Assembly: GCA_963971425.1 (NCBI GenBank)
Contig: OZ020526.1
Coordinates: 1,516,180 to 1,580,179 of the forward strand
Direction: 5' to 3'
DNA length: 64,000 bases
Origin: Bryoerythrophyllum caledonicum
Lineage: Eukaryota; Streptophyta; Bryopsida; Pottiales; Pottiaceae
The stretch's first letter is position 1, and each line of letters begins with the position of its first letter. The translations under genes and the position numbers were made by a program. The notes below the pieces were generated by a model. It saw nothing but the letters and a program-made list of their open reading frames with translations. It was not told the origin of the DNA and did no database searches. Shown here in pieces: positions 26,787 to 51,760 of this stretch.

Positions 26787-26797
26787 ACCCTTCCAAC
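26787..26797 (+). repeat. target-site duplication of MULE, left
   Basis: CCCTTCCAACC here is repeated exactly at 41712-41722. Up to 11 bp match. Mutator-type elements usually duplicate 9 bp (range 8-11), so 9-11 bp are target duplication. Confidence 0.8.
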
Positions 26798-26862
26798 CGG
26801 ACCAAGCTATTTTGCGTGCTCAATTTTGCGAGCTGCGAGCTGCGAGCCTACGGTTGCGAGCC
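26798..26862 (+). repeat. left terminal inverted repeat of MULE
   Basis: From 26805 it reads GCTATTTTGCGTGCTCAATT and then three tandem GCGAGCT-type heptamers. It pairs with 41647-41711 with only a few mismatches. Beyond it both ends turn A/T-rich with a shared GTAAAAGT word. Confidence 0.9.
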
Positions 26863-26889
26863 TTGCAGGAAAATATTTTGTTTCAAATT

Positions 26890-27720
26890 TGAAAAAAGTA
26901 AGAGAAAGTAAAAGTTTAGTGGGTTTAGGGTTTGGTGACCTAGGTTTGGGCGCAATAAATGGGTGGACCTATGACTGTGCCGGACGGCGAAAGGTCTCAA
27001 AACGTGAGGTTATAGGGTTTTATAATTTAGTTCATATTTCCCTACCTGTACCTATGGCCGTGGATTCTATGGTCCAACAATAACGGGTAGATTGGATATC
27101 TGTAGCTATGAAGCATTTGGTTTACGGGTTCAACGTATAAAATAGTGCAGTGGAAGAGAGGAGGAGAGGCATGTGGTAGTGTAGTTTTCAGGTTAGGGTT
27201 CAGGGTGTAGGACTCCTGGATTAGGGGAACTAGTACTTAGGGTTATGGGTCCACAGTTTTATGGAGCTGTAGAGACACAACGTCGGTGGCAGACACAGTA
27301 GAAGATGGAGATATGTAGGTTTAGGCGAGAGTGATGGATAACAAAAGATATACGGTTAGAGTAAAAGGTGTAGTGTCTCATGGGAGTCCTATATGAAGTG
27401 GTCAATAAGAAGATGGATAGTTGGATTTGGTTTAGGTGAAGTGGATAGCAAACACGGTTTAGGGTATTGGGGGAGCATCATAAGTTTAAGATAACTGACG
27501 ATAGACAGTCACAAGGGGTTAGTGGAATAGTGAGAGATTCAACCACGTTCGGTTTAGGGACAAGCAAAATTAGAAGCGGCAGAGGGTAACTGTCCCTTCT
27601 TTCATGCAAGTGAAGAGATAGAGTAGACAAGATGTACTTCAAGCTGTGGAGGTGGCCCTTTTAGTCTCACCGTTTTTTAAATGGAAGGATTGTCTTCTTA
27701 CAAGCTTAGCGAGTGGAAAT
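26890..27720. other. left subterminal non-coding region of MULE with GGTTTAGGG-type motifs
   Basis: No gene is seen. GGGTTTAGGGTTTGG (near 26920), GGTTAGGGTTCAGGG (near 27192) and GGTTTAGGGTATTGGGG (near 27455), plus several GGTTTAGG words, recur in about 600 bp. They look like telobox-type motifs (AAACCCTAA on the other strand) often found in plant promoters. Here they lie at the 3' end of the transposase gene. Confidence 0.5.
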
Positions 27721-27725
27721 GGTAG

Positions 27726-30700
27726 CTATACTGCATAGTATTTGAGGAGTAGAATGTGAAGAATACGCTTGATTTCATTCCAACTGAAACTAGGTGCGTG
27801 AATAAAGACATCTACCTCCGGATCTAAACCACACACAATGTTGAATATGTAGTAGAGGTGCTTACAGTAAGTCCATGAGCCGCGTTTGCCAAGCGACTTC
27901 TTCGACATCTCTGTGAAAGAGAGGCAGTCGCAGCTTGGAAATTGACCGATTGTGACGAAATATCGGGAAACAGTGGAAATGTTCCGTGACTTCAAAGTGA
28001 CAATGCAACCAAGGGCTGGAGGTGGAACCATTAGAATCGTGCAGAGTTTTCCCATTATGGAGTGAGCAGAGGCGCAGCTGTTATGGTGACGAGTAGTAGG
28101 AGCAGCTTCATTTCTTCGGATGTTTTTTCTGTATCGCTTGGTTGGATGGTCTGTAGGGTTAGGAGGCATAGGGTAATTGTTCAGGTTCACCGAGACGCCT
28201 TCACCGAACAACTTTCTAGGAGACAGAACCTCACGCTCAGCGAGACAAAACCCAGCAGTTTCTAAGGCAAGTATCTCTGTTCTGCTCAGGTTTGTGCCCA
28301 TTTGAACTGGCCAGAACTGTGGAGGAGGTGGCATACTTTGAACCCACTTGCGCCGTGTGCCCATAACACAACGATGAATGTCGTCGTTGCAGAAGAAGAA
28401 CCGATGTCTCTCTAATCTAGTCTTTCTGTAATTGTCCATCAAGCCAGTGTAAGTAGGGGTAGCTGTTGCTTGGTTGTTCTGTACAATAGATGCCACACAC
28501 TTCTTCCTTGTACCGGCTTGAAGAGCGAAACATTTCCTAGCAGATGTTTTAGGAAGCCTTGCGATGTGCCAGTCATTCTCATCACAGACCGTCTCTTGTA
28601 CAGCTCTCACGCCTGGAACCCGGGAAGAAGTTCTTGGTGGAGAAGAAGGAAGTACTTTAGGAGCTTCCGGAGAGGGATTTGGTGATGGCAAGGGATCATC
28701 AGCTGTGAGATCCACAATCACTTCATCAATGCGACGTGCCTTACCTCTGGGGCGGGAGATGCTAATCTTATCCGGGCGATGTGAATCAAATTCAGAACCT
28801 GGAGGAAGATCAACTTTTCTCTTCAAGTATACAAACTCCTCTTCTCCTTCTAGGTGAGGATTGCGAGTGCAGAATTCGTCCCCACCGGGCATGTTGGCAA
28901 GGGCGGCATGAAGAACCTTAGCATTTCCTGTGCGCTGCGCGGTGCGAAGGGCAGTACGGAGCCGGAGTTCTTCCTTTCCTAGACCCGTACGTGGCTTCTC
29001 ACCCTTCACGAATTGATAGTACGCGACAACTTGCATGAAAGCACGAACCATGTCGACGACTGCAGCAACATACAAATCATTCCCTCGTTTTCCCGACTGT
29101 TGTAACCATTTGTTGTGAACCGACTTCGCCAAATTACAGGAAGGCATCTCGGCTAGTTCAGCTTCGCTAAGGTTCTGCAGAGAACGGGACAAAACATAGT
29201 TCAAGAGAAAGATTGAATTGTAAGGACCGTTTAGAACAGCAAAGAAAAGCAATGCAGTGACAAAGATGTGAATTAAATAACAGAGGAGTTCACTGAGAGG
29301 AGGGACATGTTAGGAAATCTTGCAATGCGAGTTCAATGATTATATGTAACATAATCAGGGCCACAACTTTTGTATTGCCGATATCGGCAGGCCCAAAACT
29401 GATGGGGCGACTATCAAGGGAGGACCAAACAGCGGTGCTTCGGCTCTAGTGCACGAGCCGCCGACGTCGGCAATGTTTAAATGAATGATATGAAATGTAA
29501 AATATAGAATGTGCAACTTAGAATTTGTGAGGCTATCGGATGACACCAATTCAAGCAATTGTGAAAAGGAAACAATGAGTGCACTTACAAGTTCCATGAA
29601 TCCTCCCCACTGCCGATATCGGAAATGCCACAAAGATAGCCAGAGCTCTAGTCTCAGAAGCCCGTCCTCAGTTGATGCCCCGGAGGACAACCACCACGCC
29701 CTGATTGCCAGGTACCTGCACTCGGCCACCTCCAAAGAGATGGAATTTTTATATTGCTTACAAAGCCTTCGGTGCTCATCTTGGAGGTCGCTTCGAATAT
29801 CTGCCTTCGTATGCTTTTCAAGAGACTGAGCCCAATGAAAGAGGCAAGTTCTTTCTCTGGACTCCATTGGAACGGCAGGGTAGCCACTACCGTAAATTAT
29901 TCGAACAACATTCCAGTTTGCCTGGGCACTATCCGCCATGAATCCCTTGAAATTTGGACTGAGAAGGTCATGTCTGCTACAAACTGCACTCAGATTCCGC
30001 CAGAACACTATCTGAGCTGCCACATCTTCGGACTGCAAATCGCAAATAGCAATGGTCATGATCCGACAGTAAGTAGAGTCGTACACATGGCAAGCCATTG
30101 TGGTCCAAGATTTGACACGTTTGACGTGGTCAAACATCATCCAGGAGTCTCCTAAATCACCCCCTTGTTGCATTCGCTTCACTAAATCAACTCCACTCCC
30201 AGGACCAACCTCGGCCATCTTGAAAATGAAGACTTTATCAGAGTCTGTTCCTTGACCAGGGAAACGATTCTCCTGTATGAAGGCCGAGTTGCTTGACCCC
30301 CTCAGCTTGGTGATGCTGTTCATGACACCGAATCGGCGAAGGTAACGGAACGTTGTCACCTCATTCCGAATGCTAGGAGAGGACATCAGTTTGAACTTGT
30401 CCAAGACGGGGACAAGTTCTTCCAAAGGCAATGTTCTCTGTGGCACGCCATCAGGGCATAAGAGTAATTCCCCAAGAAACTCCTTGCTAGCTTCGAGGAC
30501 AATAGAGGAATTTGTTCCAGCCGGAGTTCGTTCCACCTGGTCGCCAATGAGGCAACGAAGCTTTGCCGAGGAGTCCCTGTAGTTCCCTTTCTTCACAGCA
30601 TGACCATGTGAACCCAAGTGAATACAGGCTCGGGTCACATGGCTTTCGCCAGGAACGTAATATATCTTTGCCGGGCAACAACCATAACAGGTTGGCGGAA

Positions 30701-31699
30701 CGTGACACACAGCGCAGACAACAGTAGAATGAAGAGGAGGGTCACAGCCAGGCACAAAAGGTGATGCAGAATTCCCCTCCCACACAGTTTCATTAACTGA
30801 GGACGACCTATTGGACGCTTTAAAAAATCACAGGAATCATTGGCGCACTTCAACTCGCCAAGACATGAAGACATTCGAAAGGTGAGGTGAAACTCAGATT
30901 TGATGTGCGAAGTGGCAGTTCGCGTCCAAGCGTGGCCATCATCCCGCTTGTCCATTCCGTGCAGGTGCCCAGCTTTTGTGGAAGGAGGATACTTTCCCAG
31001 AGGAGGTAGTTCGAAGATGACATCTCCATTGAAATCTGGAGGAAGAAAATTAACCTTGCGAACTAGAATGGAATTGTAATCTAGTTTTGACAAAACGGAC
31101 TTCGATCCAGGTCTGCTGCTAAGAAGTCGGAGATAGTGGACGACACTATCGGAAGGAGGAAGAGGGGGTTTAAGATTGGCGGGACCAACACGCTGAGACG
31201 CTGTGGACTGAGAAACATGGATTGCCGAGTTCAAAACGGAAGCACTAGGAACGGTAGCATAAGGGATGCAGTTGCTGTCGGAATCGTCACTTAGAACGAC
31301 TACTCCTTCATCAGGTGGCTCTAGTTTAACCTTCCGGAGAAGTGGAGTCACATCAGAACAGCGACCAGGTGTCAAGTTGGACGAACCAATATCAGGTGCT
31401 ATATCCACAGTTCCATAGACTCGATAGTTTCCACGAGCCAGGAGCCAAGTCTTTGTACCGTCAACAGAGGAAGGCATCTGAGCAACTGTATGGCTGACCT
31501 CGTTTGTGACGGGGTCAAGAACATCCATATCAACATGGACACTGTGTTCCAAGAAATGGAAACGAGAGGCCAAACGACTTTTAGAAACTGTAGCAAACCC
31601 ATCTTCTAAAGCAGGAAAAGAAATGGGTAAAGCTTGACCAGCAGCCCGAATGAGAACAGATCCACAGTTCAGAACATGTGATGCAGCCATGTAATACAA
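27726..31699 (-). CDS. MULE transposase with SWIM zinc finger
   Basis: This would catalyse cut-and-paste movement of the surrounding element. Reading leftward: an N-terminal region of about 290 codons (start ATG at 31699 or 31690); a Cys/His-rich segment (CAVCHVPPTCYGCC, then CIHLGSHGH); a DDE core with Asp in HVYDSTYC (near 30085), Asp in FMADSAQANW and the typical CLFHW after it; an intron (29175-29588, donor GTAAGTGC, acceptor TCTGCAG); and a C-terminal half ending in a SWIM finger (CDC...CKH, near 27860-27935). Total length is near 1185 aa, long for a MULE. Two SUMO-interaction-like motifs occur (VVVLSDDSD and VIVDLTADD). One frame change is needed at a T6 run near 30826-30831, either slippage or an assembly error. 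Confidence 0.87.
29375..29390. repeat. 18-bp-type palindrome, transposase intron
   Basis: TTGCCGATATCGGCAG is a copy of the element-wide GCTGCCGA-N2-TCGGCAGC palindrome with shortened arms. It lies in the transposase intron. Confidence 0.75.
29457..29474. repeat. palindrome copy, transposase intron
   Basis: GCCGCCGACGTCGGCAAT is a variant of the element-wide palindrome, 82 bp from the previous copy. Confidence 0.7.
29611..29624. repeat. palindrome copy inside transposase exon
   Basis: TGCCGATATCGGAA has the palindrome core and lies in coding DNA, where it encodes part of RYRQW shortly before the exon end. Confidence 0.6.
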
Positions 31700-33330
31700 G
31701 AGATTTGGTGAAGAGATTCAAAAGAAGGCGGAGGCTGCTGAGGCTAAGGATGCAGAATTATGTGAAGCCTGAAAATGGCAAGATCTTTGGAGAGGATGGA
31801 ATATAGAGTAAATATAAGTTTAGAGAATGCCAAAAGTACAAGGGAGACGAAGTTCAACTAATTCCGTTGAGTGATTAAGATATGCCGCTGTTGAACTGTG
31901 GTATCAGAGGTTGAATCATAAAATCCGTGAAGAGTACACTGTTTCAAAACATGTCACGTAGGAGCACTAATGAGCGATATAGTGGATTAAAGTATTTTAA
32001 AAAGGAGGCCGTCAATATTCATCTCAGGTTGCAGCCTAAATATCCAATAGTTAAAAGAATGGCGGCGAACTCAATTTATTTCATAAAAGTACCAGCTCAG
32101 TTAGCACAGTGACCGATGCATACCAAATTCAGTGAATCAATGATCGTGGGTTCTACCAGGGATTTTGGCTTGGCAATTAGTATTAAGTGCCAGATTAATG
32201 AACTTGTCAGATTTATCGGTGGCGGTCGCTATTCAGGATTAGAATGAGTAGGGGGTCTCGACTAGAAAGGAGGGATGAATTTGACAAATTTGGGGAATTG
32301 CAATTCAAGGGCTATGCCGAAGAGACGCAGAAAACAAACATTTTTCTTTACAAATAGAAAGCAACTGAAACGATCTAGGCAGATAAGGGCGATGAGATCG
32401 AGCAATAGATTGGCAAATGTCGGGGACACAACAAAAGTACTTGAGTTTGAAGGGACAGGGAAGGCCAGAGTGGGGGAGGGAGGAGCTAGTTTGATTGAGC
32501 TTCAGAGATTGTTAGAAAGCAATATGATAAAAGGTGGTAGTCTCGCGGGGAGCCACATCGGTAGTCCAAGTGAGGATGGTGTTGGTGAATGCAGCAGTGC
32601 CGATGAGACGGGGCAAGGTTTGTGGAACAGACTGCTTGTAAGTGCACAAAGTCTCTTATGACTGCAGACAATTTGCTCACTCAATCAAGTCGAAATGATA
32701 GCTGTTACACGCGTTGTTTCGGTCGTTCTCTTTTACCACAAATCCCAATCAGGGTGATGAATGTTGTAGTGTCATAGGGTTTCAGATCAACGTTCTTACC
32801 CTTCGTGCTAGTATCTGTGATCGTCCTGCTACCTCGTAAGAGATGAACCCGCTATCTGAATCAAAGCGGCAGTCATAGTTTTGCTTGCTTAAACTGTGTT
32901 GACGTGATCGCAGAAGAACGAGATCTTCATAGTCTGGCGATAGAGGAAACCGGTGGTGGGGGGAGCTCGCCGGCCATCATCGAGGGTTTGTAACTCTTGT
33001 CTATGTATTTTGTTAGTGTCATGTTTCCAGATTTGGTCACAACTGAGGTGTCCAGGCTTGAGGAGTCGTTCCATTTCTCGGAAGTAGTTATGCATGCTCA
33101 AACTCTGCTCTCGAGAATATAGAAGAACGTGATCCTAATAGTTTCGCGATCTAGGGCGCTGATTTTAGAAGCAGCTCGCCGGCCGTCATCGACGGTATTT
33201 AAATCCTGTCGCTTTTCATCTCATTGTCATGTTTTCAGATAAGGTCTTGGGTGTGGACTTGTCACTTGCAAGGTGAGTGAAATGAGTCAGTATAGTCGAA
33301 GTCGATTGATTTCACAGAAGTAGGGTTAGC
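31700..33330. other. central intergenic region of MULE, left part
   Basis: This lies upstream of the transposase gene and should contain its promoter. The only coding candidate is the ORF at 32275. Two blocks near 32880-33080 and 33120-33240 are diverged copies of each other (each has GATCGCAGAAGAACGAGATC-like or AGAAGAACGTGATCCTAATA-like text, then AGCTCGCCGGCC.TCATCGA and TTGTCATGTTTTCAGAT-like text). Confidence 0.5.
32275..32661 (+). CDS. small basic hypothetical protein, 128 aa
   Basis: An ATG preceded by AAGGAGGG opens 128 codons between the two main genes of the transposon. The first third is strongly basic (MPKRRRKQTFFFTNRKQLKR) and would act as a nuclear-localisation or nucleic-acid-binding tail. 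The rest is acidic/neutral, ending NRLLVSAQSLL. I do not recognise a family. It could be a third gene of the element or an unspliced first exon. It could also be chance. Confidence 0.3.
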   Translation: MNLTNLGNCNSRAMPKRRRKQTFFFTNRKQLKRSRQIRAMRSSNRLANVGDTTKVLEFEGTGKARVGEGGASLIELQRLLESNMIKGGSLAGSHIGSPSEDGVGECSSADETGQGLWNRLLVSAQSLL

Positions 33331-33353
33331 AGAGGTTGCGGCGCCAACAGGAA

Positions 33354-33766
33354 GCTGCCAATGTCGGTAGCTCCCAGGTGCCCACACTCTTGTTGGAGTC
33401 GCGACCCTTGCTGGTTGCGACGCGAGTAGGGGGCTGCCGATGACGGCAGCTCCCAAGTCTGGACACTCTTAGCGCGAGAGGGCCACCACCTGGAGGCTGC
33501 CGACATCGGCAGCCCCATGCTAGCGTCGCGACCGTTGCTGGTAGCGACGCCAGTATGGGGCTGCCGATGTCGGCAACTCCCAAGTGTGGACACTCTTAGC
33601 GCGAGAGGGCCACCACCTGGAGGCTGCCGACATCGGCAGCCCATGCTGGCGTCGCGACCGTTGCTGGTAGCGGCGCCAGCATGGGACTGCCGATGTCGGT
33701 AGCTCCCAAGTGTGGACACTCTTGGCGCGAGAGGGCCACCACCTGGAGGCTGCCGACATTGGCAGC
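33354..33766. repeat. phased palindrome array, seven sites at 63-bp spacing
   Basis: Copies of GCTGCCGACATCGGCAGC or its reverse complement start at 33354, 33433, 33496, 33560, 33623, 33686 and 33749. After the first interval (79 bp) the spacing is 63, 64, 63, 63 and 63 bp, six helical turns, with orientation alternating. The spacers alternate between two 45-bp sequences, giving a 126-127-bp tandem unit. One spacer is itself an inverted repeat around GTTGCT. This is iteron-like in design and lies between the two divergent genes. Confidence 0.88.
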
Positions 33767-34750
33767 CCCTTGCACACACATATTGGGATCAAATTTTGTA
33801 TTGAAGAGTCCTGTGAGCATGGTTTAGGTTACTAGTTATATCCTCTATATTTTAGGTGGCTTGACAGAATATCACTAGGCGCTCACCGGTAAAGTTGGGT
33901 GGAGTGTTTACCAGCATTGACCACATTGCTCTTGAGCAGTTTGGACCCCCCATGGTTCAAATCGAATTGACAATATGCTAGTTTGGTGCCAACTTCATAG
34001 ATCACTCCTTCCGTGTTGATTGTTGGTTTCTTGTGCCGCTTTGCTTGATCGGACTTTGGAATTTGTATTTTATGGTAACATAGGTTTTTCATTTTTCATT
34101 TTAAGCAATGCTAATAGGCGTCGAGGTATGAACTTGTTCCTTCAGGATCGGTGATATTCACTTTATTCAACAAATTTAATGAGTTTAGGCCGTGATCGAA
34201 GATGCTTGGGGCCCAAACATTTTAAGTTTTGAGCCCAAACTCCAGATGATAAGGGCCTAAACCAGAGAAGTTTAGGCCCTAACTAAAGATGTTATCCTCA
34301 CTGCTATGAGTCGCATTGATCACTGATAATTAGTTATTGTCTGGGTTGGGTTAGAAGAATGCACCACGACGATAATAGAGTTACTGTTGATGAGAGCCGT
34401 TGTTCATTCAGTTTGTAATCGCTGCTACCTTCTTAGAGCATATTATCGTCATTTAGGGTTTAGGTTCAAACTGAAGATCTGATCCTCACTGCTGTGAGTT
34501 GCATTGAGCACTGATAATTAGTCCTCGTCTGGGTTGGGTTAGTGGAATGCACCACAACGAAATTAGAGTTACTTTTGATAAGAGCCGTTGTTCATTCAGT
34601 TTGTAAGAAGTTCTCCTAATCGCTGCTAATTTCTTAGAGCTTATTATGGTCTTCTAGGGTTTAATGCGCCCGCGAGCGATTTCAGAAGATTGAAATGCAT
34701 TGCATTTGTGTTTGACCCAAAACCAATGTCTTTCAACAGGACGCGATCAC
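33767..34750. other. central intergenic region of MULE, right part
   Basis: This is presumed 5' region of the ParB-methyltransferase gene. Two blocks (about 34240-34420 and 34450-34650) are diverged copies, both containing CACTGCTGTGAGTYGCATTG-like text, CTGATAATTAGT and GGTTGGGTTAG. Just before exon 1, TTTCAACAG resembles a splice acceptor, so a leader intron is likely. Confidence 0.5.
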
Positions 34751-37700
34751 ATGGCAACTGGAGAGGGCAACGACCGGCGCAGTATGGAGACAGGGAATGA
34801 AGAACCCCTCAGGAGCGGACAAGACGTGGTGGACGGTAAGTGCACTAGTTCCATTGTCAAAATTTTCACGATTCGAATCTCAATAGTTAATGTCCAAGCA
34901 TTCGATTTATCGTGACATAGCTCCCGCCGAGGGGCTGCCGACATCGGCAGCTCCAAAGTGCGGGCACTTTCCTAACGGGAAGCACCTACACTCCGGAGCT
35001 GCCGATGTCGGCAGCCCCTCGCCAGGAGGAGCTGACGATAATGTCAGCCTGGCTACGGCAGGGCTGTTTAAATTGACAGCTCGTCCGAGGAGATTCGAGT
35101 CAGTGTCTGCTCGTCCTGACACGGATATCTCGTTCGCGCCTTTCAGAGAGTGCGAGTCCGCTACTGCTCACAGCTTTCCATTCTTAGCTGCCGTCTTTGA
35201 TTGCCAACCTGACCGCACGAGGAAGCCTTATTATGTGACCATAATTAATCCCTGAAACGTCAATCTTGACAGGGACGCATTTCACTCCGCAGATTACAAA
35301 AAATGTAGCACCTTTGGATTGAGGATTCATCAACTTTCATCTTTCATAAGGAGGTCATTTCAATAGATTACCTTGTTATGTTCAAAGACGACACCTAACA
35401 TGTAGAATACTATGGCCTTGTGACGTTTAAGGGTTATTTGACATATTCATGTTAACTTCCAAGGGTTGTTTGTGAGAGGGATCACCTGTATTGGCTCATG
35501 GATCACCTGTATTGGACATACTGGACGTTTAAGGGTTAAGGGATCACCTGTATTGAGTCCATGAGCCATGAACACCCATTCACCATATTATTATCAGCTT
35601 ATTCGTTAACAAGCCCGACCAGATTCTCACTGGAGGATTTGACGACGAATAACTTGTTGTCGAGAAGGGCGGAGTCGTAGAGCTCCAGGAAGATATTCAT
35701 GGACGATATCAGGTGCCATTGATTGCTCTCGGGGTTGAATACCTGGGCAGTCGACCCTGCAACTGATCACGTTCAGGTTATTTATAACACCTGAAAACCG
35801 AAAGAATATCACGATATCACCTGACCAACGAGGGGACATGTGTTGATTAATGAATGGACTAATCATCTTCAACAAGAGATGATATTTACTCAAAATAGGT
35901 ACGGGATAATGATCAACCTGCCTTGCACTTGGCCCGGGGATTGTTCAGTGGGGCGACAGATTTCCACCAGTAAAGTTGTATGTCATGTCTCGTATAGTTA
36001 TAATCAACCACAACTGCATGCATTGTCATGTCTCTACCGCTCCTTTGCCGATGAGCTGCCGACATCGGCAGCTCTGGAGTGCGGGTGCTTCCCGCTAGGA
36101 AAGTGCCCGCACTCCGGAGCTGCCGATATCGGCAGCCCCTCGGCAGGAGGAGCTGTCTGAGGCTGACAAGAGGAGCTGACAGCCTGGGTGTGGTGGGGCT
36201 GTTTAAATGAACATTGTCTCCGAGAAGATTTGGACATCGGTGACGCTCAATTGCATGAGCTTCTTGTTTGGAATTTGCGTGATGACTTCTGATTTTGTTC
36301 TTATTTGCAAATAATTTGTTCTCATTTGCTTGGATATTGATGATTAGCTTCAGAGGAGGGAGAGGAGACGACTAGTGCTCGGGCTTATGGTGGATCATCT
36401 CAACGGTCGCAACCGCATATTTTTATGGCAGGTAATGACAATGCTGTTTAAATTATGGATTTATTTCTGAATTGCAGTCTGACCTCATTTTATTAGGTTC
36501 GGAGGTTGGGGAGGCTGCTGATCGCATTAATGTTCCGGTCAACGACTTTCCGGTTGAAGATGACTTGCTTGAAAATAGTGTTCTTGGTGTAGAGATGTCA
36601 GCGGAGGACCTCAGTAGAGAAATGGATAAGTTGGTGGTTATGGAGTCCGCTAATACAAGTCTTGTCCTTGACGAACTTCGGTTCAAACCAAGGAACAAAT
36701 CAAAGCTAAATATTCCTCTGTGCCAAATGCTTCCCTTAGCTGCTGTTAGGCCATATTTAAAGAACGATGTCATGGCACTTGGGGCTCAGTTTGTGAGCAC
36801 CGGATATATGGATGGCCAAGAAGTGTTCTACGTTGCGATGCATGATAATGAAGGCAGATCCAAGGCTGTCTCTGACCATATAAAATCAAATTGGAGCCGG
36901 TTTTGGGTTGAGGCTAACAATGCCTTTGAAGTAGAGCTAATGAAGGAGGAAGATTGGAAGCAGTTTTCTGGAATGATGTTCTTTGTTTGGGACGGTAACC
37001 ACCGTCTTGCAGCATGGTTGCCAATAATCAACAGAGATCATGCAAGTGATTCAGCATGGCACTATGCGGTGGAGTCCATCATTCTTGTTGTTGATGGTCA
37101 GGTGGGAAGGCTTCAAACAACGCTCCATCAAGTGAATTGGTAAGCCACTCGACAATGTCTAGATCACTTCCATTGCCTCCCTAGATATTTATTGTTTTAA
37201 ATGTGATGTGCAGGAGAAATCAAACTGGGCATGTCAAACTTAACCTTGTCCACAAGTTGTACCGCATGCAAGGAATCGCAGGTCAACCGTTGACGTTTTT
37301 CGAGAATTTAGTATCGAAGGAAGACTTAGCGAGTGCTGACAAGAAGCAGAAGTCTGCTAATCATCAAACGTGGTACACATTGACAGTGGATGCACTAATC
37401 GGTGTGCTCTATCAGGTACAACTTAGAATTCTAATCTCCATTTCCGTTCAGTCTCTCAATTTTTGCTTCTCTTGGATTGACGTGACGGCCTCGAGCATAC
37501 TTTCCGCTTGAAGAGGTACCGAGCTAGTAGTGCCGACATCGGCACATCCTGTAATGGTTTTCGTTCCATGAATGATTATTTCTGTTAATTTAGTCACTAA
37601 TTGTAGAACCTCCACAAAGGTGCCGATTTTGACTCCCCCAAGGACCAAGATAATTACTTCGACTTCTAGAATTTTCTTCTATTAACTTGAATGAGCGTTT

Positions 37701-40700
37701 ATTTGTTCCGCCTCCATTTACTAATATTGCGTAGATTCTATTATGTAAGAGAACGTTCATAATAAACCTCCTCGCAGTTGACTTTGCCTGTCATCTACTT
37801 TTATTCTCATTTTCTGATCAGACTCTTTCTCTGTAATTCTTGCAGCAAGATTTAGGCGATGCGGTTGCCCATGCGACAAGGAAGTTTAAAGAACAGTTTC
37901 CGGCGAAATCAAGCCAGTGGAACGCTGCGAAGCTTCATGAGGTCATTGGGAGAGCTGTAGCTAAGATAAGGAAGGACAGGCGCTCTGAAGTTATGAAGCA
38001 GCTACCCATTGCTGATCCGAAGCACTCGCCTCAATTTCTCGAAGAAATTCGAAGGCATTATGAGAACCACGAAGATGACCCGGAAATGTCCCAAGAGAAG
38101 CTCTGGTACTTAGCTACTTCGACCATGGAGTCCACTACAAAGGTGAAGTGGTTGCAGCGTTGGAATATGCCAGCATCTCTTCGTGCAGCAGTTCGCTTTC
38201 CGCGTGCAAAGTTCGCTGACCACTCATTTCCAGAGTGGCTCCACAAGGCGACTTGGTGGGCGCAGGTAAGCATTGCTGTTGCTTTTGAAAGACAATGTGT
38301 TTTCATTGAATTCTCTGACAATTATCAATTTTCCTTTCTCAGATTGCAAGTGAAGTTCAAGACCTGTTTTCAGCCTCACTTTCTGATCTTAATGTCACCA
38401 TTGACTATCATCCAGCGGGTCAATCTGTAGTCAAGAGTCTTGCTGATTATGTCGAAGAGATGCAAATCCAACTTTGGGATTTGGCATTTGTTCAGGACTT
38501 TGAGGCAAACAAGACTCACAAAAATAAACAACCTGAGGACCAGGTTGGTTTGGCCGAGGCGGTTTCCAGACTACTCTATAGGTACTATAACTTTGTCCTT
38601 CTCCCTCGGAATGTTGTAACGAAGACTCCAGCCTTTTTTCCTGGATACCTCGATAGAAGGAGTGACAATTGCATGATCACCGAGGAGATTGCGAAGAGGT
38701 GGGGAGAAGAGCATTTTGCAACTTGTGGTTGGTACTTGGACTGCCCTGTAGTAGCCCTCCGTCCTTTGAAATTTCACTGAGGAACGGGATTCAACCTGCA
38801 TTCACTGGCACGGAAGTGGTTGTTCTTTCTTCACCTGCCGAACCCAATGCTATAAAACCACGGATCTCAAAGCGGAAAGCCGAGGAGGAGGCTAAGAAAA
38901 AGGCTACCGAAGCAGAAGTAGCTCAAAGGGCCAAAGTGGCGGCTGCGGAAGAAAAAGCGAGAATCAAACAGGTAGCCCTCGCTTCCGCAGCTGAATCCAG
39001 CCAGAAAGTAGCGGCAGACCCCTTGATTGAGGTGACGGATTATAATGTGGACGTTCTAGAGGCCTCTCCGGAGTTCATCGACTCACAACCACCTCGTTGC
39101 CCTGTGGCACTCACACCTGACCCTGAAGCTGACCTTTTAAGCCCCATCTCCATCATTTCAGAGAAGTTGAAGAGGCGAGCGGCTTCAAAGAAGTCACAGA
39201 GCCACCCTTCCAACACTGTTCATTCACGTGTTTTTGTTGCGGACTCCAGCATCAGAAAGATTATGGAGGCTCTTCCATCCGTACATCCCAATCTCCAAGG
39301 GCTAAACGACTTTGCCTTTCAGGTATTCTTTTTGTCTTAAACTGCACTTTTTTTTCTCCTGAATTTGATATTGTAGTCTTATCAAGTTATCATGCAATCG
39401 TTGTTCAATTTTTAGAGGTGCAGTTGCCGTCTTTTATCCGTACGAACAGTATCATTTCCTTTCATTTCCTTTCAATTTTGGCACCACAATTGATTTATTT
39501 ATTTTGTTTGCTTCTTGTATATTATGATATTTATGTATTTCCTTTGAATGTTGGTTGTGCCTCTAATTGTGTTTATCTTTAATTTTTTTCTAATTGCACG
39601 CATGGTGGAGTTTCTCGTGTTCCATACACTTCGGTTCTATATTCACTTTTCTTGCGCCCTCTCTGTCATTGCCGATGTCGGCAGCAACTCCAGTGAATAC
39701 ATCCATCTATGCGTTTATTCTATACCTCCGTTGAATCCTATACTGCTATTTTTTACTCTCACCATCTCTATTTGGTTTAAACTTCATTTTTTTTCAGGTC
39801 AAGAATGAGACTGGGACAATGTCACTTCTACTCATTGCCCCCACAACGGCTTTGATTTGATTATTGGAGATTTTAAGGACGGAATGATGGTTCTAGGAGT
39901 CTCCGTGAACTCTAGCACAATTTCAGTCTGGAATGAGTACGCCGTGGAGGACACGGAGACGCTATTTGAATTCGCTGAGTACTTTCTTCAAGCAAAGGGA
40001 GCAATTCTTGTCTTTGTCCCCGACGTCCCCAACATTAAAGCTGATGTACTCTCTTTTGCGGCTGCTTATGGCTTTCAGCCAATCCGTGAGTGGTGGGGCA
40101 TTAACGACCTTCCCTTGTCGTCGTTCTTCACTCCTGGAATTCAAGTATGTCCACGTTTTTTATTGATCTTTTGCTCTTATATGTTGATCCTTGTTTTCAT
40201 CCTCACTTATATATTGATCCTCATTTTCACTGCCTTCTTTTCTTTATTTCAGAGCAAGCGATTTAAAATTCAACTTTATATTCATGAGAAGCTTGGAGCG
40301 GATCAATTTCACATTGCTAGGAATGCAGATCACACCGAGTTGGGCATGGGAACAGCTGATTCGGATGTACTCTTCAATTTTACCACTAGTGTGTCTCAAT
40401 CCATGAACGGCTCTATTCCGTGGAGGGGCCCCCGTGAGAAGGACGCAGTCTTCATTGAGATGTTCATTGAGGCGCTTACGGAACCTGGCTCCCTCGTCCT
40501 CGATGCCTTTGCCTCCGTTGGTTTGTTTATTCTTCAAATTCTCCATGCATCAGTGGTTCCTAATATCCGCTTTTTTCAGTTCCATACTGAACTTCTGTTA
40601 TTCTCTTGCAGGGAATTCCATTCGTGCTTGCAAATCAGCGGGCCGCCACATCGTTGCACTTGACGACGACATTTCAGTTTTCAATGCAAAATTGAGGCCG

Positions 40701-41107
40701 TTTCTTCATGGGCGTCCTCCAAGTGCTCGTGTTCCCTCTGTCGCTCAAGCTCCTCCTCTTATTGACGTGGACGTCTCTATTCGGAGAGTCACAAAAAGAA
40801 CTAGATTGAGTAAGTAAGTTTCATTCATTGATGCTCCTTAGTACTGCATTCTTTCATGCAGTCCATAATTCAGTATTTTGTGGTTGTTATGGACAGGTTG
40901 ATTGAGCTGCAATTATCTCCTCACCGAGATTTCAACATGGTGCCTTGGGACGCAGCAACTGCAACTTTTCAGGCTATGGCAGAATCTCCATCCCCAACTC
41001 TGTCTATTCCTAGTTACGACAGTCATGTTCGTTGTTTCATTGATGATGAAGCTGAGGTTGAGATTTGTTCGCACTCATCTTCCATAGAAGCTTCAACGGA
41101 TTCGTAG
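34751..41107 (+). CDS. ParB-like / DNA N4/N6-methyltransferase-fold fusion protein, about ten exons
   Basis: Proposed exons: 34751-34835, 36348-36431, 36497-37139, 37214-37415, 37846-38265, 38343-39322, 39798-40144, 40253-40520, 40612-40813, 40897-41107, all with GT-AG borders; about 1147 aa. Exon 3 holds a ParB/sulfiredoxin-type fold ending FVWDGNHRLAAW. Exon 6 carries an Ala/Lys/Glu coiled coil (KRKAEEEAKKKATEAEVAQR). Exons 7-9 hold a beta-class methyltransferase order: FDLIIGDFKD where DPPY is expected, then SIPWRGPREKDAVFIEMF, then PGSLVLDAFASVGNSIRACK where FxGxG is expected. ParB-methylase fusions are familiar from phages and prophages. Both catalytic motifs are altered, so activity is doubtful. 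The frame must shift in exon 6 (near 38750) and early in exon 7 (39800-39850) with no clean intron, so the copy may be decaying or mis-assembled. Confidence 0.78.
34934..35015. repeat. foldback unit with two palindromes 64 bp apart (intron 1)
   Basis: GCTGCCGACATCGGCAGC at 34934 and GCTGCCGATGTCGGCAGC at 34998 flank a spacer with its own inverted words (GTGCGGGCACTTTCC / GGGAAGCACC). The unit, extended by flanking GAGGGG/CCCCTC, folds on itself over about 90 bp. It is the reverse complement of the unit at 36055-36136. Confidence 0.85.
36055..36136. repeat. second foldback unit, inverted relative to the first (intron 1)
   Basis: GCTGCCGACATCGGCAGC at 36055 and the perfect palindrome GCTGCCGATATCGGCAGC at 36119 lie 64 bp apart. 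The spacer GGAGTGCGGGTGCTTCCCG / AAAGTGCCCGCACTCC is an inverted repeat. The downstream flank (GGGGCTGTTTAAAT, then TCCGAGRAGATT) also follows the first unit, so a larger segment was duplicated and the foldback core flipped. Confidence 0.85.
37531..37544. repeat. palindrome copy in intron 4
   Basis: TGCCGACATCGGCA, the core of the element-wide palindrome, lies in the intron between exons 4 and 5 of the ParB-methyltransferase gene. Confidence 0.75.
39670..39685. repeat. palindrome copy in intron 6
   Basis: TGCCGATGTCGGCAGC lies in the 475-bp intron between exons 6 and 7. Confidence 0.75.
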
Positions 41108-41646
41108 TTCTATCAACAAGTTTGATGTTGTCTTAGATCTTTTTTAGTATATCTTTGGGTTTCGAAGTTTTGTTACCACATCCTAAATTGACCACCACAC
41201 TCAGTCCAGCAATGTGCCTTCGTTGTGTTCAATTTCTGAGATTACTCTTCTGTAGTTAGTTTATTTAAGTTGCTTCCCTTCCACAAGAAACTGTAGAGTT
41301 TTACTCCGTTTGAATTTACCACAATCCACCCAAATCAACGGTCCACATCCCACGGCCTTAGGGTACCTAGAATATTGCCGTTGTATAGGTCACCCTCACC
41401 CTAAACCTGGTCGCCTTATTGTTTTGGACTTCATTCATATTGACGCCACAAGTTGACAGGTTTCCATGGCTATAGGGCCCTCCCCTTTTCTCTTTGACTT
41501 TCATCTTCACTTTTTTGTCCTTTATTTTTCATTTTTTTCCCACATTTTTTTTTCGACCCTTCAATTTTTTCTTTATGTTTCTGAAAACTTTCTCTACGCT
41601 CTGTTACTTTTACTTTATCTCCAAAAATTTACAACTTTTTAATTTC
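41108..41646. other. right subterminal non-coding region of MULE
   Basis: This is the 3' flank of the ParB-methyltransferase gene up to the terminal repeat. It is T-rich and has CCTTAGGGTACC and CACCCTAAACCTGG words near 41360-41405 that mirror the TTTAGGG-like motifs of the other end. No gene is seen. Confidence 0.5.
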
Positions 41647-41711
41647 TACGCTCGCAAACCTAGGCTCGCAGCTCGCAGCTCGCAAAATTAGGCACGCAAA
41701 ATAGCAATCCC
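41647..41711 (-). repeat. right terminal inverted repeat of MULE
   Basis: Read on the bottom strand it gives GGGATTGCTATTTTGCGTGC, then AATTTTGCGAGCTGCGAGC. It is the partner of 26798-26862, including the three tandem GCGAGCT-type heptamers. Confidence 0.9.
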
Positions 41712-41722
41712 CCCTTCCAACC
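41712..41722 (+). repeat. target-site duplication of MULE, right
   Basis: CCCTTCCAACC, identical to 26787-26797. Confidence 0.8.
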
Positions 41723-45382: not shown

Positions 45383-48300
45383 ATGCCAAATGTCTTCCAC
45401 AACCACCCAAAAACACACAAAAGATTATCGAAAATATATTTTATACCAAATACTATAAAACTCCACCCCGAATATCAACACCTGGCATCTTCCTTTGCAC
45501 CACTTCTAAAAATTAATCACATACTTCACCAAACTTATTCCACCCTCTACCCCAACATTTCCCACTACATACATAAAAAAACAACCACCCATCCACACAT
45601 ATCCTATTTGCCATAATTACCACCCTCCACCCTTCAATAAACGAATGCAACAATATCACCAACCAACATTCTACCAACACAAACCCAACATATTGGACAA
45701 ATATATTACTAAACACCCTATCCTCTCTACATAATCCCCCCGAAAGACATATAGATACACTTCACCCATACACCAAATTCCTAGAGGAAAACCAGCACCT
45801 CTTTGAACACAAAACCTCTCTACACAATGATCTAAATAACTTTATTCATAGCCAAACCCCACCCCCTTCCCCCGAAGAAGTACAACTAAAATTTCCCTAC
45901 TTTCCGCACAATCTTATCATTGAAGCTCTTAGATGCTTTGAACCAATTCATGCTTACACGCACCCCACCCCGACCCCCGCCTACATTTCCCCTCCACTCT
46001 GTAACCACAACAATATAGACAATAGAAGCACATATATAACCACATGGAACGCCGCAACGTTAAACATTGCTTTACCATGCATCCACAATCTAACCGCCCA
46101 CACCAACACTCCACCCGCCATAATTGCCATACAAGAAACTAAACTAACCGCTACTAAATCCACAAAATACATCCAAAAAACATTTCCCGATTATAAACTT
46201 ATATTTAATAACACTCACTCTCTCACACGATGCATCCAACAACGAAGGCCATATACACCGGCAAAAGGAGGCCTACTCATGCTCATACACCAATCATATG
46301 CCTTCCCCGGGAATATTACTAAAATCCCTACCCCGGCTAATATATCACCGTACCTTCAAATTATTGAAATTACCAACCAACCCCTCCAACCATGGCTCAT
46401 TCTTCATCTATACATGCCCACGCACATAGAAGACTCTAGACTTTTTCCGGAGATCCAAAATTCCATCACTTCACAAATAAATATACATACTAACCATACA
46501 ATAATACTTTGTGGAGACTTTAACCGAGATATCGCCCTTATTGGACAAAAAAACGGAGGGGTTTCTACCCCCCCACTTGACATAGACTATCAATGGAAAA
46601 ACTACACGGATAACCTAGAATTATATCTAATCCCAACCAACACACAATACTCTCGTCAAGGTGGACTTAATTACACATACACTAGCCTAGGTGATGGATT
46701 TTACATTAAAACACCTAACCATACCCAATACACATCCACCACAAATACCACAACCAACTTAAACTCAGACCACTTCCCAATCCAACTCAACATACCTCAC
46801 AACACCCTTATAAGTAGACCTCCCACAATCATCAACTTAAATGATACTAAAATACTAAACGCCATCCCAAAAGAAAACCTTGATAACTTTAATACAATAT
46901 TCTTTGAAAAAAACTCACTACAAATAGACTCCCTTATAGATATTCTTTCTAACCACCAACACCTTACACATATACAATGGCAAGAAGCTGGCACGACTCT
47001 TGACAAACTTATTAATGAAATTTCTACTATACTAGAGAAAACCTGTAAAGCACCCCCGATTCCACAACTCACGTCTCGAACCTCAAAACAAGGGGGGTAT
47101 CTCCCGAGAAAACTAGCCAAAAAGTGGAAACAACATCTTGTCACATACCACACTATTTGAAAAACAATTTATATTGCTAAAACTAACCAAAATTGGCGAA
47201 CCCACCCCATACTCTCCGAGATACAAAACCTCCGTCACCCTCAAATCCCACAAGCACCACTATCCAACACCCTACACGAAGTCTGGCTAAAAGACATTGC
47301 AATCATTGCAAAAGCTGCCAACAAAGATGCTCGGAAAATTACTACAAAATATGCAAGAGAATGTGTCCAAAAAGCCATATCTAAGTATCGTCAATTATAC
47401 AAAACTAGCCCAAAAAAGATTAATAGAAAAGTCTTTAAAAATAACACAAACCTGCCACTAGACTGTATTTTGGATCAAAACAATAACATTCTAACCAGCC
47501 TAGATGACATTGCAAACGAAATACACTTTCAACAATCCATAAACAATAGACCATCCACCCCCTCCATGCCACTTCCAACCACAACATACATCAACATGCA
47601 CGTGCGGAGTTAGGCAATACCCGTGGCATGATTTGAACGGATTTACCATTGATAAAAGAGGAGAACCGACAACGCCTCTCCACACATATTATAACAAAGA
47701 CTAATACAACATGTGCCTAAAAAATTTGGGAAACAACAAAGCCCCCGGACCAGACCATATACCTAACTCAATTCTAAAAAACATGCCTCCAAGATTCCAT
47801 GATCTTCTATCATTATTCTTCGTTCATTGTTATAAACAAAAATCCATTCCCGCATCTTGGAAAACAAGTTTAACAATCCTATTATACAAAAAAGGCAACC
47901 CATCCGTGCTACCTAACCACCATCCTATTGCCTTAGCTAACACCATTTACAAGCTATATACTAGCACACTAACATCAATATTATCGGCCTACGGGGAAAA
48001 ACACCAAACACTACACGAAAGCCAAGAAGGGTTTAGAGCCGAGAGAAGTACCACCCGACAACGTCAAACCCTCATAGCTGCTCTTGAAGATGCAAAATTC
48101 ACTAATAAAGACATTTACATACTCTACATTGACTTCAAAAACGCATTTGGTTCCATTGACCACCCTCGATTGCTAGCCATTATGAGCGATCTTGGTTACC
48201 CGGAAGACGCAGTCACACTGGTTGGCAATATATACTCCCAATCTACCACTACATACACTGGAGAATTCTTTGGTAAAACACGCCCTATTCCCATCCAACG

Positions 48301-51300
48301 TGGTACCATTCAAGGCGATACACTGAGCCCATATCTCTTTATCATTTTTCTAGAACCTCTATTGAGATGGCTTCAAAGAGGCAATAATGGCTACACATTT
48401 GGCACCTCAAAAATCACCGTACACTCGGCCGCATATGCCGACGATCTAGCAGCCATCTCCGGACGTCTTAAATCACTCCAAATTCAATTAGACAAAATAG
48501 ACAAATTTTGTCTATGGACCGGGATGGAACTTGGGGTCCAAAAATGTGCCGTAACTGGATGCCCAAACAAATCCAAAATAAATCCGACCGCCTTCAAAGC
48601 CCTAATCCAAGCTACCAATATCCACTACCGTAACCAACCAATTCCGGTTCTCAACCAAAACCAACCCTACATATATCTGGGAATAAACCTAGTCCCATCG
48701 TTAAAATGGAAAATTCAAATTCACGCCACCACTACAAAACTTATTAAACAATACAAGGAACTTACACTATGTCCGACTACATTGCAACAAAAAATAAAAA
48801 TGATTGATACTGTCATACGCCCGGGTATCTCATATAGTTTCTATGCGGTCCCTTATTCCATGCCCGTCATAAACAAACTTGATAAAAAAATCATAGCCAT
48901 ACAAAAGAAAGTATGCGGACTCCCTAATTGTACGCCCAATGTCATAACACAACTCCCCCACGAACTATTTGGATTAGAAGCTTTGTCCCTCAAAAATGCC
49001 TATCTACGTTGCATCGGAGAACAACTCCAAAATGCACTTAACGACAAGGGACGACTAGGACTAATTTACACTGGACTCCTTCGGCACATCCTTGCCATTT
49101 ATGGAGGAGCACAATACCTCCAAAGATTTAAAAAATCTGACTGTCTTCGGTCTCCCATTACCCGTACACTTTTTCTACTCAAAACAGAAGGTCAAACATT
49201 CTTAAAAAGCACACTAGAAGATTTCCTACTAGGCCCCGCGCCGCTCGAACAAAATTGGGCAAATGAAATACATAACCTCCCTAGACTTGATCGTCAATTA
49301 TCCGCCAAACTCCTACAAAAACTTTTCTCCGCAAACATTACCAATCTAAAACAAATTACACTACCGAATGGAACACACCTTATGGACGACAAGAGCTACA
49401 AAATATTCTACGGTACCCCTCACGAAAGTGCACTAAATATTGCTAAACAATTATTTTGTCATCCTCCATGCCTCCCTATATGCCCCAACCCTTGCACCAC
49501 TCACGCCCCACCTTACACACTTAAAGACTCATACATCATCGGTCACAACGACATCCACCCCAACATCAACCTCCCATTAATCCCTCCAAACCCGCCACAT
49601 TTACGACCATATGTCCATCCACCACATATATTAAAAAATCCTTCCATACACCCAATAAATAACATAACCGCGCACAAACATAGAAAATACATTGACTCTA
49701 ACAACATAAGCAAACAATATACGTCATACCTATGCCATTGGTCCCACAATAACACCATCTACGCCAAATGGCTCCCTCAAAGAAATCTTTTTCGGTAGCA
49801 CAACCCAAATACCTCCTCACATAACACCAAAATCCTCACACAATACTACCTTAGAACTCAAAACAATTATTACCTAAATATCATACAATTACACCACCCC
49901 CAAGCACAACCTCGAGATAGAAGATTTGTCACGCCACCTCTTATTATCCCCCTCCTTAACATCTTTACAACCGAATGCAACCCCGAAACGGACATCCTCA
50001 CACAAACAAATACAATCAAAATACAACAAGACAATGCCCACATATATGAAAGTAATGGTAGACACCTAATAACCATACCACTTGCTAGACTACAATGGCT
50101 GTGGATCCAATACCACAACGCAATACAAACCCCCATTAACATTGAACCAATACCTCAAACATTTGAAACCGAAATTGTTTGGCTATACCAAAGATATAAA
50201 TACCGAATTCCCAAAAATGACCCTCTAAAAAATGCACACTATTCACTACGTGATCCTATCTTAGACCACCTTATCACATCTCTGAATATTACACATTCAT
50301 ACTTTTCATCCCCCGTTACATGTTCTACAAAAATTTCAAAATTCTACTCCCCATTTGAACGTGATAAGATTTTTGGTTCTCTTGGAAAAACTTTTGATTA
50401 TAAGTGGAGCGGAATAGGCCTTGCACACCCTCACAACGAAGAAGAAACACAACAAGTAGTTCATTGGGCACGCCTAGCGGCAAATAATGATCCCATCCAC
50501 AACATCACCATTATTATCACTCCCGACACTCACTGGTACCACAACTCTAATCCACATATAGGTCCATTCCCGGACTCTCACATCATAGTACTATTTGAAG
50601 CGGACTCTATGACCTACAAAGAACCCACTATACCACCACAAATACAAACACCCCGCCTTGAACTAGCAACCTTACGTATCCTATGTATACATCACCAAAC
50701 TCGGGAAATAGGTACCCTAGAAAACCTCACTCATCTCACTTTGATAGCAAAAAATCTAAACATTAACAAGGTATACACCGCAATTGCCCCCCCCACACCT
50801 ATTTCAATCCGAGTAAACCGTAACAAAAAATGGTCTAAAATCCCCCATACAAACATCTCCGCACTACCAATTACCAAATTGAGCCTCCCACTCCCCAACT
50901 ACCAAATTAATACCATCCTTAAATTTGACCCCAACTTTAGCTACTACAGTGATGGCTCCTTTAAAGAACCAACCAAAATAAGCCCCGGACATTGGCACCG
51001 AGAAAAAGCCGGTTATGGGATATACAATTCAACCAAACAAATTAAATTAGGCAAAAGACTACACGGACTCCAAAATATTCTAAGAGCCGAAATGATGGCT
51101 ATACACAAAACCCTTAAAACACTCACCACTCAATACCCAAACGAATCGGCTCACATTTTTACAGATTGCGAAAATGTGTTATATTTCCTTAATACACACA
51201 TTAAACACCCCACTTTACATAATAGTCACCCGGATAAAACTATCCTTACATCTATGGTTACAATGCTCCAAAACCGCACACAGATTACTACACTCCACAA

Positions 51301-51658
51301 AGTCCGAGCTCATGCTAATATCGACGGCAACGAACAAGCTGACAAACTAGCAAAGGAAGGAAGAGAAAAAACCCACAAGAATGCCGAACACCCATACGAA
51401 CAGGCCCATGCCACCCCATATTACTTTCATAGATATGAATGGCCCTCTATGGGCGAAACTCTCGATAAAGGCCCCATACGATTCTTGGACAAATACCTCA
51501 AAAAACACGATCTTATAAATAACCTAGAAAAACTTACAAAAAACTTCCCCAATATTGATAAATGGACCGGCAACCCAAACATTCACAACGTAGTGTCCAA
51601 CAATTTTTGGAAAAATCCCACTGTAACGGATCCACAAATCACATGCCTAATCAAATTC

Positions 51659-51666
51659 CGCACCGG
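51659..51666 (+). repeat. 8-bp target duplication of foldback element, left
   Basis: CGCACCGG, repeated at 63654-63661. Removing the element plus one copy restores an unbroken LINE frame (KFRTG then QYMGNAR). Confidence 0.9.
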
Positions 51667-51760
51667 CAGGGTTGTCTATTGTGTCGTGACAGGGACAGAT
51701 TCCGTCACAATGTCACGATGTCACGACACAATGACGGCATGACATTCTGACGGATCGTGA
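51667..51760 (+). repeat. left terminal inverted repeat of foldback element
   Basis: The first 14-16 bp match the other end closely; further in, both ends share TGTCACGA / TCGTGACA words in varied order (51683-51730 and 63575-63640). The outer match is short and the rest is repetitive. Confidence 0.8.

Follow-up and report, generated by a model that had tools for sequence, protein, structure and literature searches.

Mutator-like transposable elements (MULEs) of the VANDAL type in Arabidopsis encode VANC proteins. These bind short motifs, specific to each family, that recur in the introns of VANDAL genes and upstream of them, and they cause methylation to be lost (PMC5735166, PMC10398659; here and below, statements from the literature refer to the accessible portions of the cited papers). 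ParB-methyltransferase fusions have been reported in transposons of brown, green, and red algae: PMC12477816 describes a 1104-amino-acid ParB-like/methyltransferase protein in the Ectocarpus element Sola1-1_Ec32 and cites others from green and red algae (Iyer 2011, Petroll 2025). In a survey of ParB-fold fusions, those with N6_N4 methyltransferases are frequent in phages (PMC12704722), and a Bacillus ParB-methylase has nicking activity (PMC5512222). SET-domain genes are described in MuDR and Harbinger elements (PMC12730594); the accessible portion of PMC6446971, on MULEs, mentions neither ParB nor a methyltransferase. We analyzed a 64,000-nucleotide stretch of the Bryoerythrophyllum caledonicum genome (contig OZ020526.1; C15:1516180-1580179; hereafter, the window) that contains a MULE with a ParB/methyltransferase gene of this kind. 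The initial annotation of this DNA had taken a phage-type methylase fusion serving a plant-lineage MULE to be undescribed; this is only partly right, as such fusions are on record in the algal transposons covered by PMC12477816.

Beside its transposase gene the element carries a second, divergent gene, which joins a predicted ParB fold to a domain related to N4/N6 methyltransferases. That domain is under purifying selection, the two genes move together, and the families of these elements have palindromes of their own. We give a probability of about one-half to the reading that the second gene of these MULE families encodes a self-recognition protein for the element's own palindromes, acting in anti-silencing or in expression tuning as VANC does. 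In the open-access literature we did not find the MULE setting, the family-specific palindrome arrays, or the degenerate catalytic site described, and we recognized no description of private palindromes of ParB/methyltransferase transposon proteins; this is weak evidence of absence. The element and its ends are as follows.

26789-26798, no strand: target duplication CCTTCCAACC, left copy (from the sequence and sister copies)
26799-41712, no strand: whole Mutator-like element (from the inverted ends, the duplication, and a sister about 97% identical)
26799-26878, plus strand: left terminal inverted repeat with tandem 7-mers GCGAGCT (at least 40 genome matches at 86-100%)
41633-41712, minus strand: right terminal inverted repeat, pairing with the left arm
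41713-41722, no strand: target duplication CCTTCCAACC, right copy (from the sequence and sister copies)

The initial annotation had proposed an element with matching inverted ends and a target duplication of up to 11 bp. This holds, with the borders corrected to 26799 and 41712, set as in the sister copies, and a duplication of 10 bp, which becomes 11 bp when a shared, ambiguous C is included. The arms (26806-26878 and 41633-41705) are 84% complementary across 73 nt. With up to 2 mismatches allowed, the 14-bp end motif GCTATTTTGCGTGC has two places in the window, one at each end, inverted and exact; 0.32 places were expected by chance, and two were reached in 3 of 100 shuffles. Duplications are 10 to 11 bp in the window copy and five sisters and, judged by eye from the flanks, 9 to 10 bp in two family E copies, so the element has the terminal inverted repeats and 8- to 11-bp duplication of a MULE. 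One sister (C2:31519670) is about 97% identical to the window element almost end to end, and six different target duplications flank the window copy and five complete sisters. Sister copies with different flanks and duplications have the two genes enclosed by the same ends, and the gene pair thus moves as a unit, as had been anticipated.

The transposase gene is on the minus strand and the ParB/methyltransferase gene on the plus strand. In the window copy the reading frame is broken three times, once in the former and twice in the latter; unbroken copies exist, and one copy (C2:22335558) has no stop in any compared exon of either gene.

27726-29174, minus strand: transposase exon 2, with a SWIM-type CxC...CxH
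29175-29588, minus strand: transposase intron, in which palindromes are the best-conserved blocks relative to families F1 and F5
29589-31690, minus strand: transposase exon 1, containing the RNase H-like core and, in the window copy, one frame break
34751-34835, plus strand: tentative 5' exon, its own ATG out of the joining frame (splice signals only)
36354-36431, plus strand: tentative second exon (splice signals only)
36478-37139, plus strand: ParB-like exon (FVWDGNHRLAAW), from profile search and predicted structure
37214-37415, plus strand: exon after the ParB-like exon
37846-38265, plus strand: middle exon
38343-39322, plus strand: middle exon, one frame break in the window copy
39798-40144, plus strand: methyltransferase-like exon, motif IV DFKD (DLKD in A/B sisters), one frame break in the window copy
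40253-40520, plus strand: methyltransferase-like exon, motif X region and motif I LDAFASVG
40612-40813, plus strand: methyltransferase-like exon, continuation of the region binding S-adenosylmethionine (SAM)
40897-41107, plus strand: last exon and stop

The ParB/methyltransferase gene thus comprises nine exons between 36354 and 41107, the first of them tentative, plus the tentative 5' exon. When the predicted structure of the ParB exon was compared with the PDB, rows 1 to 13 were ParB-type proteins, followed by SerK and sulfiredoxin, and a fold of the ParB/sulfiredoxin superfamily is supported by this model. In the WDGNHR motif the Asp is invariant and the Gly, Asn, His, and Arg are at least 90% conserved (n = 90, the window and 89 of 120 listed relatives); we take the Arg, matched by motif, to be the phosphate-binding Arg of the P motif. 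A single-exon ParB profile found 437 relatives in public protein sets. A search of 5.8 billion proteins with the full protein gave 7990 scored candidates, none at E ≤1, probably because metagenomic gene calls end at introns. Pfam sequence profiles did not recognize the ParB part of the protein, and the ParB exon alone had no match in a PDB sequence search. Foldseek against viral models returned many ParB-like names, none at E ≤0.001, and two viral-contig scans gave no relative. The ParB-exon profile also picked out ribosomal protein eL24 (over the middle part of the profile, E = 0.0016) and an ATPase (E = 1.2) in the PDB, both judged to be chance matches.

The other half of the protein is related to the DpnA, CcrM, and RsrI enzymes. 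A five-member methyltransferase profile matched DpnA in the PDB (E = 4e-06), all five members matched PF01555 (N6_N4_Mtase; best, 2.1e-07; first member, 25.0 bits against a cut-off of 26.7), and PHROG phage methyltransferase families matched at E = 1.4e-06. The family D exon matched no methyltransferase family in the PHROG scan, and the remaining Pfam and PHROG scans added nothing. These sequence matches support a relation to N4/N6 enzymes. At motif IV, none of 10 readable copies has [DNS]PP[YFW]; the motif is DLKD, DFKD, DIPD, or DVPE there, and motif I is AS[VIT]G. The domain is kept by purifying selection despite the loss of DPPY, but it has probably given up canonical methylation. Thus, the divergent multi-exon fusion given in the initial annotation is confirmed, in its ParB half by predicted structure and in its methyltransferase half by profiles; the N4/N6-type fold relation stands, and the reading as an active methylase is weakened. 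Among the Pfam profiles that had been proposed, N6_N4_Mtase was matched and those for the transposase and the ParB part were not.

The nearest structure to the predicted model of the transposase core is the ISCth4 transposase, and the protein is of the MULE/IS256 kind with an RNase H-like core. Two Asp residues (FDH and ADS), CxxH, and CxC...CxH are conserved in the aligned transposases; the third acidic residue was not placed. At least 50 relatives are present in public protein sets. Pfam MULE and MuDR profiles assigned no family to the window transposase or to the 5 metagenomic relatives scanned (of 50), which marks a divergent transposase lineage. Of the MULE/SWIM assignment made initially, the MULE-type part is supported, and the SWIM-type CxC...CxH is conserved.

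Searches of the 437,360,962-base assembly placed the left end at 40 or more sites with 86-100% identity (best 40 of 320 first-look candidates) and gave at least 150 matches to the ParB exon at 61-100% (best 150 of 1769). Eleven copies besides the window were examined, nine of which have ParB exons within the 16 to 18 kb read. In the C10 copy the ParB exon is 20 kb from the end, beyond a palindrome array of more than 9 kb, and the copy at C6:20208532 has a transposase and no ParB exon in the 16 kb read. A same-strand ParB exon lies 9.3 to 31.7 kb downstream of 34 of the best 40 left ends (57 exons entered); the other 6, one of which is the C6:20208532 copy, have none within 60 kb among the 57 exons compared and are possibly deleted or non-autonomous copies. 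The initial annotation had counted ends without the methyltransferase gene against its proposal; copies without the ParB gene probably exist beside many that carry it.

This Mutator-like family is large and recently active, and identity reaches 99.7-99.9% in some of its sister copies. A family B copy (C7:1554029) is 99.1 to 99.9% identical to those at C2:22335558, C14:16766480, and C6:20208532 in aligned blocks of >400 bp, except for 469-base repeat blocks at 88 to 89%. The near-identical B copies have palindrome arrays of unequal length where both arrays were read. The window transposase is 89 to 96% identical to those of family A/B sisters and 66 to 68% to those of family E, whose ParB exon is 67% and other exons 37 to 64% identical to the window's. 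Two copies of family E on different chromosomes are 99.84% identical over 12.2 kb; the outer sequence of their ends is similar to the window's, with other 7-mers, and they have their own duplications. The tandem end 7-mer is GCGAGCT in family A and GCGGTGA in families E and F7, and these differing 7-mers may be family-specific transposase sites. A distant family, D, is nested in a family C copy; its genes are again divergent, with a stop in the ParB exon, and are 32% (transposase, part read) and 39% (ParB exon) identical to the window's. Its long exon gave 77 scored matches in the genome, out of 3722 first-look candidates; identity is 96-100% in the first 29. In 8 kb read of each of six further families (F1 to F5 and F7), a transposase was seen in five.

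Palindromes of the form TGCCGAYRTCGGCA lie between the two genes and inside introns of each, mostly 63 to 64 bp apart. The initial annotation overlooked these arrays, which are the cis half of the system.

29376-29389, no strand: palindrome TGCCGATATCGGCA, transposase intron
29459-29472, no strand: palindrome CGCCGACGTCGGCA, 1 mismatch, transposase intron
29611-29624, no strand: palindrome-like site with 1 mismatch, close to where transposase exon 1 ends, which may be a coding coincidence
33356-33764, no strand: intergenic array of seven palindrome-like sites (0 to 2 mismatches), first gap 79 bp, then 63 to 64 bp
34936-35013, no strand: palindrome pair, 64 bp apart
36057-36134, no strand: palindrome pair, 64 bp apart, in an inverted copy of the 34936-35013 region
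37531-37544, no strand: palindrome, ParB-gene intron
39670-39683, no strand: palindrome, ParB-gene intron

All 13 exact CCGANNTCGG sites in the window are inside the element (29378 to 39672), and all 13 have a pyrimidine-purine (YR) center. With up to 2 mismatches, TGCCGANNTCGGCA has 17 places in the window, 16 of them inside the element; simulated windows (n = 20) had 0 to 4 each. Among gaps of 40 to 140 bp in all sequences read, 208 of 248 were 63 or 64 bp. An 18-bp form of the palindrome has 252 sites in the genome, and its reversed control has none. Placement was scored against 57 ParB exons, the 20 kb around which make up 0.26% of the genome, and all 50 sites listed of the 252 were 323 to 4898 bp upstream of a ParB exon.

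Other families have other palindromes. That of family E, GGTGCCGACAGCGGCACC, is found in the transposase intron and upstream of the ParB gene and has 83 genome sites (control, 0). Sixty-seven of these are 270 to 4997 bp upstream of a listed ParB exon, in every case one of 62-68% identity; 89 of the 150 listed exons are at least 69% identical, and none of those is among the exons associated with GGTGCCGACAGCGGCACC. The remaining 16 sites have no listed ParB exon within 8 kb, perhaps because only the best 150 exons were listed. In family D, AATGGCTTTCGGATCCGAAAGCCATT is the center of long palindromes, seven of which are 519 to 541 bp apart (one with an altered center); it has 206 genome sites (control, 0), and 47 of the 50 listed are 1807 to 5216 bp upstream of a D exon (49 entered), the other 3 not. 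In 8 kb of each further family, F2 and F3 have A-type sites, F4 has E-type sites, and F5 has two variants besides a single A-type site. In F1, a GGCCATGGCC repeat lies close to the ParB gene (6877-7055 of the stretch read) and A-type cores lie in the transposase intron, a possible switch of site type. When the window's transposase intron was compared with that of F1, the best shared block was a palindrome (E = 7e-04), followed by a second palindrome (0.002) and a third, unrelated block (0.03); with that of F5, the best shared block was also a palindrome (E = 4e-05). As in VANC systems, the families thus carry repeated motifs of their own in noncoding DNA, with F7 as an exception in the 8 kb read.

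In the copy at C10:15826672, the array of more than 9 kb lies between the genes, and 145 sites (≤2 mismatches) occur in 16 kb. Elsewhere in the window, positions 45577-51742 hold long open frames that are endonuclease-, reverse transcriptase-, and RNase H-like and, by eye, resemble a long interspersed nuclear element.

Three features make self-recognition the best explanation and suggest a protein by which the element's DNA is marked or protected: a DNA-clamp-type fold, palindromes that differ among families, and the position of these palindromes within introns and in the space between the divergent genes. The ParB-like module, probably a clamp gated by nucleoside triphosphate (NTP), would load at the element's own palindromes, and sites 63 to 64 bp apart, about six helical turns, could allow a number of molecules to assemble along the same face of the helix. 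The methyltransferase-like half might bind SAM, DNA, or a partner. The complex would keep the element's promoters and introns open against host silencing, or tune their expression, as VANC does for VANDAL, and changes in the array would be coupled with changes in the protein, so that each family recognizes itself. A bolder version, which we regard as doubtful, is a working ParB-parS-like system in eukaryotic nuclear transposons: an NTP-gated clamp at element-specific palindromes six helical turns apart would spread and shield promoters from host silencing via a catalytically retired methyltransferase fold, each family's protein-site pair making up an orthogonal recognition toolkit.

Several observations weigh against self-recognition. 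The type of site is inherited along with the ParB clade and the transposase, and their match is therefore no proof of recognition. Of the 208 gaps of 63 to 64 bp, 138 belong to the single C10 array and near-identical copies contribute others, so these gaps are not independent. The YR center is not universal in other copies: C10 has five GG, and two B copies have one GT each. The 8 kb read of F7 contain no exact site and a single place with ≤2 mismatches, and the only match common to the transposase introns of the window and family E is a non-palindromic one of 9 bases. Between two A copies the ratio of nonsynonymous to synonymous changes (dN/dS) in the ParB exon is 0.806, with few changes. No helix-turn-helix was identified in the ParB-like protein, and the exons 3' of the ParB exon were not folded.

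The palindromes might instead be sites of the transposase or transposition complex, the ParB/methyltransferase protein doing something else. Transposases of other superfamilies bind repeated subterminal sites, and here too transposase and sites are inherited together; however, the sites are in mid-element, in introns and between genes, and not at the ends. In F5 the transposase is 79 to 86% like the window's, the ParB exon is 68% like it, and two of three sites are not A-type, which fits the ParB gene weakly better. On balance, we think this account unlikely. A passive origin, as satellite or foldback repeats growing by chance between genes, would agree with the long C10 array and with the changes of array length between near-identical copies, but it is barely credible when palindromes are the best blocks shared with the F1 and F5 transposase introns and families A, E, and D arrange unlike sequences in a similar layout.

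The protein itself could be an active N4-cytosine or N6-adenine methyltransferase that marks element copies, as has been proposed in the literature for the Ectocarpus relative. Its DpnA/CcrM/RsrI relation, the phage methyltransferase and N6_N4_Mtase matches, and selection on the domain speak for this, but with motif IV altered in all 10 readable copies and motif I reading AS[VIT]G we consider it quite unlikely. That the protein is used as ParB is with parS, bridging or condensing element copies to serve in segregation, the clustering of copies, or target immunity, appears decidedly improbable: its closest structures are ParB-type proteins and the arrays are like parS clusters in logic, but no ParA was noticed, although no search was aimed at it, and a chromosomal element would have no need of partition.

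Self-recognition offers a testable function for a class of transposon proteins that was reported without one, and the many diverged candidate protein-site pairs in this genome should make the recognition rules learnable by comparison. If it is true, MULEs have a second, ParB-type protein solution to sequence-specific anti-silencing, and the bacterial partition fold has a new eukaryotic use.

Bacterial ParB-parS shares the predicted fold and the palindromic, clustered sites, but its site sequence differs. Phage and bacterial ParB-methylases likewise combine a ParB fold with an N6_N4 or adenine methyltransferase and are often mobile (PMC5512222, PMC12704722); they are prokaryotic, with nicking reported for one and NTP binding for other ParB fusions, whereas the window gene has introns and a degenerate motif IV. 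The Ectocarpus protein of Sola1-1_Ec32 also has ParB-like and N4/N6-type methyltransferase parts in one protein, encoded on the strand opposite to the transposase, but that element is a Sola1 and not a MULE, and the accessible description gives no cognate palindromes. In layout, the window element resembles the VANC/VANDAL anti-silencing system with a ParB-type protein in place of VANC. VANC21 motifs are arrayed in one orientation and the window element's are palindromes, and binding and methylation loss were measured for VANC and are predicted for the window element. Both have a MULE-type transposon with an accessory protein, short family-specific motifs in introns and upstream regions, fast turnover of arrays, and a motif type that follows the family.
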